Shown: positions 9,073-12,364 of the stretch, piece after piece
Layout: each line of letters opens with the position of its first letter
Numbering within the stretch: position 1 is the stretch's first letter
Source: an uncultured Tateyamaria sp.
Lineage (GTDB): Bacteria > Pseudomonadota > Alphaproteobacteria > Rhodobacterales > Rhodobacteraceae
Assembly: GCF_947503705.1 (NCBI RefSeq)
Contig: NZ_CANNES010000003.1
Span: forward strand, 1 to 64,000
DNA length: 64,000 bases
Reading direction: 5' to 3'
The notes under the pieces: generated by a model
What the model was told of the DNA's origin: nothing
Databases searched by the model: none
What the model saw: only the letters and a program-made list of their open reading frames with translations
Translations under genes and position numbers: made by a program

Positions 9073-9090
9073 TGTCAGATAATATTTACA
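9073..9090. promoter_or_regulatory. PpsR/CrtJ-type operator, distal half
   Basis: TGTCAGATAATATTTACA fits TGT-N12-ACA, the consensus bound by the redox/light repressor PpsR (CrtJ). It lies 131 bp before pucB and 8 bp from a second copy, the paired arrangement bound by the tetramer. Confidence 0.8.
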
Positions 9091-9098
9091 CTTGAGAT

Positions 9099-9116
9099 TG
9101 TCAGTAAAAGCTGACA
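9099..9116. promoter_or_regulatory. PpsR/CrtJ-type operator, proximal half
   Basis: TGTCAGTAAAAGCTGACA is a full TGTC-N10-GACA palindrome, the optimal PpsR site. Together with the site at 9073-9090 it predicts repression of pucBA in oxygen or strong light. I could not identify convincing -35/-10 elements next to it. Confidence 0.85.
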
Positions 9117-9203: not shown

Positions 9204-9359
9204 ATGGCGGACGACGAGGCAAAGGTCTGGCCAACAGGCTTGACTCTGGAAGAGGCCGAAGAGGTGCACAGCTATCTCATCGACGGAACACGCGTGTTTG
9301 GCGCGATCGCGCTTTTGGCGCACCTGCTGGTCGCAGCATCGACCCCGTGGCTTGGATAA
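9204..9359 (+). CDS. pucB: Light-harvesting LH2 beta chain
   Basis: 51-residue single-helix antenna polypeptide in the photosynthetic membrane. His40 (in LLAHLLVA) is the expected axial ligand of the B850 bacteriochlorophyll and His22 is the conserved N-terminal His. The soluble N-terminus has the [13 protein letters not shown] pattern of LH2 beta chains. Start at 9204 with GGAGG seven bases upstream. It pairs with PucA, whose gene starts 12 bp downstream, and is controlled by the two PpsR palindromes upstream. Confidence 0.95.
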
Positions 9360-9371
9360 AGGAGGCACATC

Positions 9372-9719
9372 ATGAACAATGCAAAGATGTGGCTTGTTGT
9401 TAAGCCAACCGTGGGCGTCCCGCTTTTTCTGAGCGCGGTGGCTGTTGGATCATTCGCGGTCCATGTGGCCGTTCTCAGCAACACCTCGTGGGTGTCTGAT
9501 TTCCTGTCCGGCAAAGAGCTGGGATCGGGCGATGAGATGGCCGCGACGCAGCTGCTGGACAACCCACAGACGGCCAAGGCATCCTATGTGATGCCGTCGA
9601 CAGACGGCGCGCGCGAAGTGACCATCATCATGTCGGACGGAACGCCCGTAAAGGCGATCCTGCAGCCGTCAGAGGTGCATGCCAGCGCAACCGAGACCTA
9701 CTCGGTCATCACACAATAG
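9372..9719 (+). CDS. pucA: Light-harvesting LH2 alpha chain with long C-terminal extension
   Basis: 115 residues, about twice the usual 50-60 of LH2 alpha. Residues 1-45 align without gaps to known alpha chains: MNNAKMWLVVKPTVGVP, then His31 as B850 ligand and Trp40. Positions 44-45, which are Tyr-Tyr or Tyr-Trp in B800-850 complexes and hydrogen-bond to B850, are Phe-Leu here, as in low-light B800-820 complexes; a blue-shifted absorption is therefore expected (inference). Residues from about 52 to 115 form an extra hydrophilic domain on the periplasmic side, with no recognisable motif. The gene has GGAGG upstream and ends at a strong terminator. Confidence 0.93.
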   Translation: MNNAKMWLVVKPTVGVPLFLSAVAVGSFAVHVAVLSNTSWVSDFLSGKELGSGDEMAATQLLDNPQTAKASYVMPSTDGAREVTIIMSDGTPVKAILQPSEVHASATETYSVITQ

Positions 9720-9725
9720 AAAAAC

Positions 9726-9755
9726 GGGCCCGCGGACGAGTTTGCGGGCCCTTTT
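9726..9755 (+). terminator. Terminator/attenuator after pucA
   Basis: GGGCCCGC (9726-9733) pairs with GCGGGCCC (9744-9751) and is followed by TTTT. It would end most pucBA transcripts, with some readthrough into pucC; this gives the excess of antenna mRNA typical of puc operons. Confidence 0.85.
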
Positions 9756-9816: not shown

Positions 9817-11277
9817 ATGTTCAACTACCGCGCATTTGCAACGCAGAAACTGTCAGGCCTTGGCCCGGAGTACCTGCCATTCGCAGATGTGGCGAGCGAT
9901 GACGTGCCCTTGTCGCGCCTTTTGCGGCTTTCCCTGTTTCAAATCACGGTCGGTATGGCGCTTGTCCTATTGGTGGGCATTCTCAACCGCGTGATGATTG
10001 TCGAGCTGTCGGTGCCTGCGACCCTTGTGGCGGGCATGTTGGCGTTGCCGTTGCTCTTTGCGCCGTTTCGCACGCTGATCGGGTTCAAATCGGATGTGCA
10101 TGTCTCGGCCCTAGGTCTGCGCCGTGTCCCCTACATCTGGAAGGGCACGCTTTATCAATTCGGTGGCTTTGCCATCATGCCTTTTGCCCTGCTGGTTCTG
10201 TCTGGTTATGGCGAGGCAAAGGATGCACCGATCTGGCTGGGCTATGGCTCTGCCGCCTTGTCCTTTCTCTTGGTTGGCGCCGGTGTGCACATCGTGCAAA
10301 CGGTTGGCCTGGCCTTGGCCACGGATCTGGTGGAGCAAGAGGACCAGCCCAAGGTTGTTGGTCTGATGTATGTCATGCTGCTGCTTGGCATGGTGTTCAG
10401 CGCGCTGGTTTTTGGCACCTTGCTGGAAAACTATACGCCGGGCCGCCTGATCCAGGTTATTCAAGGTGCTGCGGTGATCACCGTCACTCTGAACATGGTT
10501 GCCATGTGGCAGCAAGAGGCACGCAGCCGCGACCGCGCCCGCGCGATGAAAGCGGCCCGTCCAATGCAGTTTTCAGAGGCCTGGACGTCACTGGTACAGC
10601 GCCCCGGAATGCTGCGCCTGTTGATCGTCATCGGCTTGGGCACCTTCGGATATGGCATGGCCGATGTCCTGCTTGAACCCTATGGTGGCCAGGTGCTGGG
10701 CCTGTCGGTGGCCAGCACGACCAAGCTGACGGCCCTGTTCGCCCTTGGCACGCTGGTGGGCTTTGGCCTGGCCTCGAAGGTCTTGGGGCAGGGAGCTTCG
10801 CCGGTACGCTATGCGATTATCGGAGCGGCCATCGGTATGCCCGGTTTTCTCGCGATTATCCTGTCCTCGCTGTCCATTGGCATCGCCCTGTTCCTGATTG
10901 GCACCCTTGCCATTGGTGTGGGCACGGGCCTTTTTGGGCATGCGACGCTCACGGCCACCATTCGGGCGGCCCCCGCCAACCAGATCGGCCTGGCTCTGGG
11001 TGCCTGGGGTGCTGTGCAGGCTACCGCGGCAGGTATTGGCGTGGCCCTTGCAGGCATCGTGCGCGATATCATCGTTGGGCTTGGCCATCTGACTGGAAAT
11101 GCCCCGCAAACGCCCTACAATTTTGTGTTCTCGGTCGAGATCGTGTTTCTGGCGCTGGCCTTGCTTGCGACTTTGCCGTTTCTCACCGGCCGAAACAAAA
11201 CACCCGATCCGTCCGTGGCGGAAACCCCTAGAATGAACGCGCCAGAGCCTCATTCAAACCCGATGGAGGTATCATGA
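9817..11277 (+). CDS. pucC: PucC, LH2 assembly factor of the BCH/MFS family
   Basis: 486-residue protein with 12 predicted membrane segments, required in purple bacteria for LH2 assembly or pigment delivery. It shows the family's FKSDVHVSALGLRRVPYIW block (about residues 90-108), the duplicated MFS-like layout and the GxG-rich helices. It begins 62 bp after the pucA terminator, and its stop overlaps the start of the repeat protein (ATGA), so the two are translationally coupled. Confidence 0.92.
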   Translation: MFNYRAFATQKLSGLGPEYLPFADVASDDVPLSRLLRLSLFQITVGMALVLLVGILNRVMIVELSVPATLVAGMLALPLLFAPFRTLIGFKSDVHVSALGLRRVPYIWKGTLYQFGGFAIMPFALLVLSGYGEAKDAPIWLGYGSAALSFLLVGAGVHIVQTVGLALATDLVEQEDQPKVVGLMYVMLLLGMVFSALVFGTLLENYTPGRLIQVIQGAAVITVTLNMVAMWQQEARSRDRARAMKAARPMQFSEAWTSLVQRPGMLRLLIVIGLGTFGYGMADVLLEPYGGQVLGLSVASTTKLTALFALGTLVGFGLASKVLGQGASPVRYAIIGAAIGMPGFLAIILSSLSIGIALFLIGTLAIGVGTGLFGHATLTATIRAAPANQIGLALGAWGAVQATAAGIGVALAGIVRDIIVGLGHLTGNAPQTPYNFVFSVEIVFLALALLATLPFLTGRNKTPDPSVAETPRMNAPEPHSNPMEVS

Positions 11278-12311
11278 CCCAAGTCATCACGCGATATTTT
11301 GAAAGCGAAACCAAGGCGTATACGGTCAAGCGGACGCTCCAGTTTGCAGGGTTTCCGCGCAAGGATTTGATGATTTTCACAGGCCCTGACGGTTTGGAGG
11401 CGGCACTTGAGGCAGAGCACGTGGAGCCCGCAACCGCTGCCGCCTATGAAAAGCGTCTGTCAGAGGGTGGTGCCGTTTTGGTGGCAAAAGCCACCTACAA
11501 ACCCCTTGGCGTGGCGCGTCTGACCCGCGAGGTGGCCGCGGACATGGGTGCCGTGGACATGGGCGACCTGGTCGAAGAGGTCACGGTTCCTTTCCAGCCG
11601 CGCGAAGCGCGCAGCATCTTGCCTGATCATCCCCTGTTCCTGAGCAGGGCCCGGGATTATTCGTCGGCCGGCAACTACATGGCGGATTGGCCCATTCCTC
11701 TGCTCAGCCGTCGCAAGCCGGTGGATGCGTTTGCTATTCCGCGCCACGGTCGGATGGCCAATTTCCCCATTCCCCTGATCAGTCGCCGCAAGCCGCGCGA
11801 CAAATTCGCCTTTCCACGGCACGCGCGCATGGCCAATTTCCCGATTGGACTGATTTCCAGGCGCAAGCCGTCGGACAAGTTTGCCTTTCCACGCCACGCG
11901 CGCATGGCCAATTTCCCGATCGGCCTGATTTCGCGGCGCAAGCCCTTTACCGGAACGCTGATTGGCAAGCACAACCACATGGCCAACTGGCCCTTCCCCC
12001 ATCTCATTGATGGCGAGGCCGGTACGAATGCGTTGATCCCGGGCGGCCCCCGCATGGCCAACTTCCCGATCAGCCTGCTGAGCAAGCGCAAGCCCAAGGA
12101 CAAGTTCGCCTTTCCGCGTCACGCGCGCATGGCCAATTTCCCCATTTCGCTTCTGAGCAAACGCAAGCCCTTCACAGGCTCCATCGTGCCGCGCCATGGA
12201 CGGATGGCAAACGCGATCCTGCCGCTTGTCATCAAGCATGGCGAGAGCAAGGGCGGCGAGGGTTTCTCGTTCTCAGGCATGTTCGGGCTGCCGACGCTGA
12301 AACGGCGCTGA
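11274..12311 (+). CDS. Repeat protein coupled to pucC: YflT-like domain plus eight 25-residue repeats
   Basis: 345 residues, no signal peptide or membrane helix. Residues 1-105 resemble the YflT/GSP-17M-type stress domain (YFESETKAYTVKRTLQFAGFPRKD, later EGGAVLVAKA). From residue 135 a 25-residue unit repeats eight times (starts at 135, 160, 185, 210, 235, 260, 285 and 310). Its core is RMANFPI-LISRRKP followed by DKFAFPRHA; unit 5 is diverged and unit 8 partial. The repeats are very basic and their starts keep the MAN(F/W)P motif. It is the last gene of the puc operon, in the place where other species have accessory LH2 genes such as pucE. I do not know this family's function; a role in binding or assembling LH2 is inference from position. 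Confidence 0.8.
   Translation: MTQVITRYFESETKAYTVKRTLQFAGFPRKDLMIFTGPDGLEAALEAEHVEPATAAAYEKRLSEGGAVLVAKATYKPLGVARLTREVAADMGAVDMGDLVEEVTVPFQPREARSILPDHPLFLSRARDYSSAGNYMADWPIPLLSRRKPVDAFAIPRHGRMANFPIPLISRRKPRDKFAFPRHARMANFPIGLISRRKPSDKFAFPRHARMANFPIGLISRRKPFTGTLIGKHNHMANWPFPHLIDGEAGTNALIPGGPRMANFPISLLSKRKPKDKFAFPRHARMANFPISLLSKRKPFTGSIVPRHGRMANAILPLVIKHGESKGGEGFSFSGMFGLPTLKRR
11676..12275 (+). repeat. Eight in-frame 75-bp coding repeats
   Basis: Tandem 75-bp units encode the 25-residue repeats of the pucC-coupled protein. Units 2, 3 and 6 are the most alike, which suggests recent duplication or gene conversion. These are coding repeats, not CRISPR: there are no unique spacers and the frame is kept. 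Confidence 0.9.
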
Positions 12312-12334: not shown

Positions 12335-12364
12335 GGGCCGGAGCGGACGTTCCGGCCCTTTTTT
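12335..12364 (+). terminator. Terminator of the puc operon
   Basis: GGGCCGGA (12335-12342) pairs with TCCGGCCC (12351-12358), followed by six T. It lies between the repeat-protein gene and the convergent dehydrogenase gene. Confidence 0.9.

Follow-up and report, generated by a model that had tools for sequence, protein, structure and literature searches.

The light-harvesting complex LH2 is a textbook antenna that has been studied mainly in a few species. In Rps. palustris, LH2 contains an additional subunit, gamma, whose repeats form a ribbon close to the cytoplasmic side around six of the nine alpha-beta units, and the serine of each of its six repeats binds one BChl (PMC9618040). Gamma is described by its authors as confined to Rhodopseudomonas, and the LH2 of Rba. 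sphaeroides is stated to lack it (PMC9618040). The Rhodobacter puc cluster is given as pucBACDE (PMC9231093), pucDE are named in Rb. capsulatus (PMC4634722), and PucC is described as an assembly factor (PMC4949548).

The puc operon in the window, i.e. the whole stretch of 64,000 nucleotides of Tateyamaria DNA that was analysed, has the order pucB, pucA, pucC and a fourth gene for a protein with a repeat tail, followed by a terminator-like hairpin. This agrees with the original prediction, which had placed the repeat gene last among the puc genes and coupled it to pucC: its ATG at 11274 lies inside the pucC stop codon (ATGA). The source genome has one copy of the gene. The following features were annotated, all on the forward strand.

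9073..9116, forward: two tandem TGTN12ACA sites, PpsR-type, upstream of pucB (motif scan)
9204..9359, forward: pucB, LH2 beta (PF00556, E 5.1e-10)
9372..9719, forward: pucA, LH2 alpha, 115 aa including a long extension at the C terminus (PF00556, E 7.4e-13)
9726..9751, forward: hairpin between pucA and pucC, 11 pairs, T-rich tail (terminator-like scan)
9817..11277, forward: pucC, LH2 assembly factor (PF03209, E 3.8e-146)
11274..12311, forward: repeat protein gene, 345 aa, ATGA overlap with pucC (ORF and homologs)
11274..11588, forward: N-terminal domain, residues 1-105, predicted ferredoxin-like topology, weakly YflT-like, acidic (pI 5) (AlphaFold2; weak YflT profile matches in relatives)
11589..11675, forward: linker, residues 106-134, lowest conservation of all parts (mean identity of 42 homologs to the window protein, 33%)
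11676..12275, forward: eight 25-aa modules of 75 nt each, module n starting at 11676 + 75 x (n-1) (motif, spacing and self-similarity; module identities from alignment A3)
11976-12050, forward: module 5, distinct NGK/GTN type (alignment A3)
12201-12275, forward: module 8, ILPLV type (alignment A3)
12276..12308, forward: C-terminal tail GMFGLPTLKRR (similar end in most long-type homologs)
12335..12358, forward: terminator-like hairpin with T6 tail, 3' of the repeat gene (terminator-like scan)

TGTN12ACA, which we take to be the PpsR motif, matches eight times across the whole window versus 9.87 expected, so that position and tandem layout are what single out the pair upstream of pucB; these candidate sites possibly place the puc operon under shared control. 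The terminator-like scan likewise gave 4 sites in the region versus 4.7 expected, and strength and place are all that speak for both hairpins. The one between pucA and pucC is a possible attenuator, through which pucC and the repeat gene may be expressed less than pucBA.

The repeats themselves are exact in spacing. MA[DN] module starts are found at residues 136, 161, 186, 211, 236, 261, 286 and 311, giving seven intervals of exactly 25 aa (75 nt, also the period returned by a nucleotide repeat search), in line with the eight 25-residue repeats predicted originally. The motif MA[DNS][FWY][PI][IFL] matches the protein seven times (maximum in 2000 shuffles, 0), and self-similarity peaks at lag 25 with a score of 1.71 (maximum over 300 shuffles, -0.33); together these tests rule out chance or low complexity as the origin of the repeats. 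The repeat core proposed at first (RMANFPI-LISRRKP plus DKFAFPRHA) describes most modules but not module 5, which is of an NGE-GTNALIPGGP type, or module 8, which ends in FSFS directly ahead of the C-terminal tail. By eye, this tail resembles an SSxFGxPTLS motif of distant relatives. The repeat region is strongly basic (charge +28.5 over 186 aa, pI 12), and the N-terminal domain carries a charge of -4.4.

An AlphaFold2 model built from a 37-sequence input reaches a pLDDT of at least 90 at 93 residues of the whole chain, nearly all of them in the N-terminal domain, whose modelled order over residues 1-105 is strand-helix-strand-helix-helix-strand-helix-strand. The repeats have a pLDDT of about 40-50 and almost no secondary structure in the models of both a long and a short member, the chains being folded without a partner and the bound form lying outside what such models can reveal, and the short-type relative gives the same picture of a confident N-terminal domain and an unstructured tail. 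No family in Pfam (E up to 1) or NCBIfam describes the window protein, and the Pfam matches of the protein and its relatives include nothing that points to a catalytic or sensor domain. The repeat protein has no match in PHROGs or to the Pfam model of PucC (PF03209), plasmid searches with the repeat family gave no match, and Foldseek returned nothing at E 0.001 or better for the model, the best hits (E 0.03) being generic alpha-beta folds. The YflT-like character proposed for the N-terminal domain is thus only weakly upheld: the small alpha-beta domain is modelled with confidence and 5 of 37 relatives match PF11181 (YflT; best E 0.0029), but the window protein itself has no match at E up to 1, and the scores listed for relatives (14.0 bits for L076, 13.5 bits for L153) stay below the curated cut-off of 26.2 bits.

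Homologs of the protein fall into subfamilies with different periods. All nine 8-repeat members have their best self-similarity lag at 25 aa. Of the 24 short members, 14 peak at 25 or 26, and 12 of these exceed the 95% level of shuffles. The best lag is 15 aa in L040-L042, and in five of ten distant relatives (L156, L158, L191, L192 and L193) it is 16 or 32; the remaining distant and short members have another period or no clear one. Among the complete named homologs longer than 300 aa, 42 of 53 align to the eight modules of the window protein, the other 11 falling outside the 8-repeat filter, and 36 of the 42 do so without any indel over 186 aa. Mean identity of these 42 to the window protein is 71% in the repeats, 52% in the N-terminal domain and 33% in the linker, i.e. 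in the 8-repeat subfamily it is the repeats and not the folded domain that are more conserved. In alignment A3, the distinct type of module 5 recurs in the same position in each of the nine members. L118 (273 aa) and L123, of which 194 aa remain at a contig start, fell short of the 300-aa limit, and alignments A1-A3 exclude L039, L044 and L068, which are fragments or frameshifted. L136 and L137 stop early, and L124, L131, L134 and L135 run off their contigs.

Judging from these alignments, eight is the module number held within one subfamily. The original prediction had gone further and noted how close eight is to the 8-9 subunit symmetry of LH2 rings. The eight modules kept in 42 of 53 homologs and the precedent of the gamma ribbon favour this idea; against it, counts by eye give about 14 modules for the subfamily with the 15-aa period and 2 to 4 for the short type. 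With 2 to about 14 modules across subfamilies in LH2-bearing genomes, a rule that repeat number equals ring size was rejected, and one module per subunit cannot hold everywhere.

The coupling to pucC is widely kept. A contig scan of named homologs gave 61 loci, including those of Roseobacter, Marivita, Tateyamaria, Cognatishimia, Yoonia and Thalassobacter stenotrophicus. By script, pucC lies directly upstream in 48 of them, 39 with the 4-bp overlap, and the listed coordinates add L131 as the 49th. In our census of Rhodobacteraceae (see below), 18 of 36 gene copies overlap pucC by 4 bases and 15 more start within 100 bp of its stop; the last three comprise two copies without pucC in the stretch examined and the downstream member of a tandem pair. 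One puc locus (L033, G235) holds an 8-repeat copy followed by a short-type copy. The puc operon of D. shibae is given as Dshi_2897-2900, with raised expression in a ppsR mutant (PMC10890935), and we infer that this range holds four genes, one of them the repeat gene.

Besides L131, which is linked, and L123, which is cut at a contig start, the 13 named loci unlinked by script comprise 11 without a puc gene nearby. Two of these belong to genomes (G001, G185) that have LH2 and a second, puc-linked copy. All nine further genomes have LHC genes, LH2-type in eight as judged by match shape (LH1-type and LH2-type pairs were told apart by match span, ORF length and neighbours, with no dedicated model): seven have two pairs, G681 has an LH2-like pair only, and G680 has an LH1-like pair only. 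Five of the nine also have a short copy close to LH2 genes, and for G676, G679 and G681 no copy besides the unlinked one was found. The draft genome G680, with an 8-repeat copy (L111) and one LH1-like pair found, is possibly incomplete or else a carrier without LH2, the one possible case of this kind.

In a census of 295 Rhodobacteraceae genomes, drawn evenly from a larger group, the repeat family was found in 35 genomes by protein search and in 36 by profile, and antenna genes (PF00556) were found in 121. The additional genome, G058, was not counted as a carrier, as its two proteins match the N-terminal domain only (one DUF2382, E 1.5e-21; one weak YflT, E 0.074). Among genomes with at least four LHC genes, 33 of 37 have the family; with one to three such genes, 2 of 84 have it, and with none, 0 of 174 (Fisher p 7e-37 overall and 7e-23 among phototrophs only, kinship being ignored). 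The co-occurrence with LH2 genes that had been predicted was therefore found, and the LHC-free genomes yielded no members in non-phototrophs away from puc genes. A general stress protein that happens to lie near puc was rejected on the same zero count, the matches of G058 being confined to the N-terminal domain. The window protein, with its N-terminal domain and repeat tail in a genome with LH2 genes, belongs to this LH2-linked family.

The two carriers with one to three LHC genes are G098 and G126. G098 is 84% complete, and its only LHC pair is the pucBA beside the repeat gene. G126 (L044/L159) has a decaying puc locus in which pucC and the repeat gene are both frameshifted; no pucBA was found in the 12 kb read, and one LHC pair lies elsewhere in the genome. 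In G240, a genome of the same genus as the window, one LHC pair and a fragment of pucC are present but the repeat gene is not. G126 and G240 show joint decay of puc genes and repeat gene and are counted for the LH2 association. Four Rhodobacteraceae LH2 genomes (G051, G091, G111 and G252) yielded no member when searched as a whole, nor did the ORFs around their pucC, so LH2 can be built without the repeat protein; we take the PucB of G051 (L073) to match that of Rba. sphaeroides. PucA has about 95-120 aa in most Rhodobacteraceae carriers (shorter in L066) versus about 54-70 aa in the four non-carriers. As the profile searches scored only the best first-look candidates per genome (10 in Rhodobacteraceae, 5 in the wider alphaproteobacterial set), absences are not absolute.

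In a wider set of 385 alphaproteobacterial genomes, the profile matched in 17: the source genome, six by puc genes and ten over part of the N-terminal domain only, eight of which were inspected and all read by eye as stress-type proteins. LHC genes were present in 25 of 347 genomes of an even draw overlapping the 385, and 11 genomes outside the Rhodobacteraceae have an LH2-type puc locus, ten of them with at least four LHC genes; the eleventh, G392, is 84% complete and has one pair. G438, with one odd LHC pair (L195), was left out of this tally. A relative with N-terminal domain and repeats accompanies the puc genes in 10 of the 11 LH2 loci. Its place is between pucA and pucC or else flanked by two pucBA pairs (L153-L156, L190, L192, L193), between pucA and a more distant pucC (L191), or beside pucBA on the opposite strand (L157, L158). 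L190-L193 had been missed by the 385-genome search; a profile into which the first six puc-linked relatives had been taken picked them up. In L154 (G441) and L155 (G618), with the order pucB-pucA-X-pucB-pucA-pucC, two LH2 pairs flank the repeat gene. The exception is G421, with no relative within its 18-kb puc stretch. A beta-chain residue was considered as a carrier marker, with IDG in the carriers examined and ILG, VLG or IAG in the four Rhodobacteraceae non-carriers, but was dropped because G421 has IDG yet no repeat gene near puc.

The association of the repeat family with LH2 is strongly supported, and a role of the protein in LH2, as ribbon or scaffold, is very likely. By analogy, we give an even chance to the reading that it is an accessory ribbon subunit of LH2 working like gamma of Rps. 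palustris, a mode suggested by the unstructured, basic repeats and by the 16-aa period that half of the distant relatives share with gamma. The protein would stay on the cytoplasmic side, where its repeats, stretched out into a ribbon, would follow the outer rim of the ring as gamma does; each module would touch one alpha-beta unit, or part of one, through its hydrophobic PIPLIS-type core, and basic residues of the modules would contact the acidic N terminus of PucB. Coupling to pucC would let the protein bind while the ring is assembled, and pigment binding by the modules is possible, through Ser or through the His that is conserved in the 8-repeat type. Evidence against the ribbon comes from the five of ten distant relatives whose best lag is neither 16 nor 32, and a strict tie to LH2 and puc is countered by the 11 of 61 named loci unlinked to puc (L123 uncounted) and by G680 with its LH1-like pair only.

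The main rival is a PucC-linked assembly scaffold, in which the repeats would serve as a multivalent tether, bringing together several alpha-beta units or PucC molecules at insertion and leaving the finished ring. We consider this somewhat unlikely, even though the 4-base overlap with pucC (18 of 36 census copies, 39 of 48 named loci), a neighbour described as an assembly factor (PMC4949548) and a basic tail opposite acidic PucB N termini would all suit it, and a variable module number is easier to accommodate in a tether than in a ring liner. It is at odds with the gene order outside the Rhodobacteraceae, where the gene follows pucA or adjoins pucBA on the other strand and does not follow pucC, and eight modules held in 42 homologs, 36 of them without an indel, are stricter than a loose tether needs. 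The conservation pattern also bears on a stress or light-response regulator whose YflT-like domain would sense a condition while the basic tail docks on the antenna membrane and protects or remodels LH2. The N-terminal domain is distantly related to the YflT stress domain, as such a regulator would have it, but the repeats are the most conserved part in the 8-repeat subfamily, the Pfam matches give no hint of catalysis or sensing and Foldseek returned only generic folds (best E 0.03), making this reading improbable. Lower still do we rate an antenna-array or membrane organiser with repeats that join neighbouring LH2 rings or bind phospholipid and so shape the membrane: the charge (+28.5 over 186 aa) and the hydrophobic PIPLI cores would be fitting for a peptide at the membrane interface, but our results give this role no direct support and do not separate binding within a ring from binding between rings.

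Returning to the accessory ribbon, we tentatively propose that most alphaproteobacterial LH2 may have a third, ribbon-like, possibly pigment-binding subunit encoded alongside puc genes and overlooked since the model LH2 of Rba. sphaeroides lacks it; gamma would then be an offshoot of a design general to LH2, or a parallel to it. Should an extra repeat subunit indeed be encoded in most LH2 operons of alphaproteobacteria, the two-polypeptide picture of LH2 stems from unusual members, and the repeat gene offers a direct handle on the setting of ring size, on extra pigments and on assembly.

The architecture of N-terminal domain and repeats has no counterpart among the puc proteins described in the literature searched, as originally predicted: the texts consulted on puc accessory genes, pucE/pucDE, gamma subunits, YflT with puc, Roseobacter pucC and D. 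shibae locus tags, some seen in part and mostly excluding subscription papers, do not describe the protein. With YflT (PF11181) the repeat family shares an N-terminal alpha-beta domain and weak profile matches, but its domain goes with puc genes and is followed by repeats. PucC is an operon neighbour and LH2 assembly factor, but a transporter-like membrane protein, and the repeat protein does not match its model PF03209. PucD and PucE of Rb. capsulatus, compared by description only, are encoded after pucC, as is the repeat gene; we take PucE to be a 14-kDa LH2-associated polypeptide and pucD and pucE to be two small genes, versus the one repeat gene here.

The closest comparison is with gamma. 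Homology to it was put to the test and not demonstrated by either motif score or PDB sequence search: the similarity of the repeat motif to gamma is not significant, as high a score being reached by 1369 of 20000 shuffled units, and the gamma chain is not among the matches of PDB sequence searches with the repeat family, the best matches in one such search being three designed TIM barrels (E 1e-4 to 0.01), each summing 3-4 weak sub-matches. Membership in the gamma family is thus not claimed, and the likeness may be convergent or a false lead. The motif test is blunt, however, since the family's own other repeat types also score poorly against the distant-relative motif (626, 1359 and 6699 of 20000 shuffles). 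The gamma chain (PDB 7zcu chain S) differs in that its 97 aa leave no room for an N-terminal domain like that of the repeat family. The likeness would lie in the LH2 partner, shown for gamma and proposed for the repeat family; in repeats without regular secondary structure, for which the monomer models of the repeat family (pLDDT about 40-50) are compatible with an extended chain but no proof of one; in part in the period, gamma having a self-similarity lag of 16, which 5 of 10 distant relatives match with a best lag of 16 or 32, versus 25 in the window protein and the other 8-repeat members and 15 in L040-L042; and in a hydrophobic PL-type core in every repeat.
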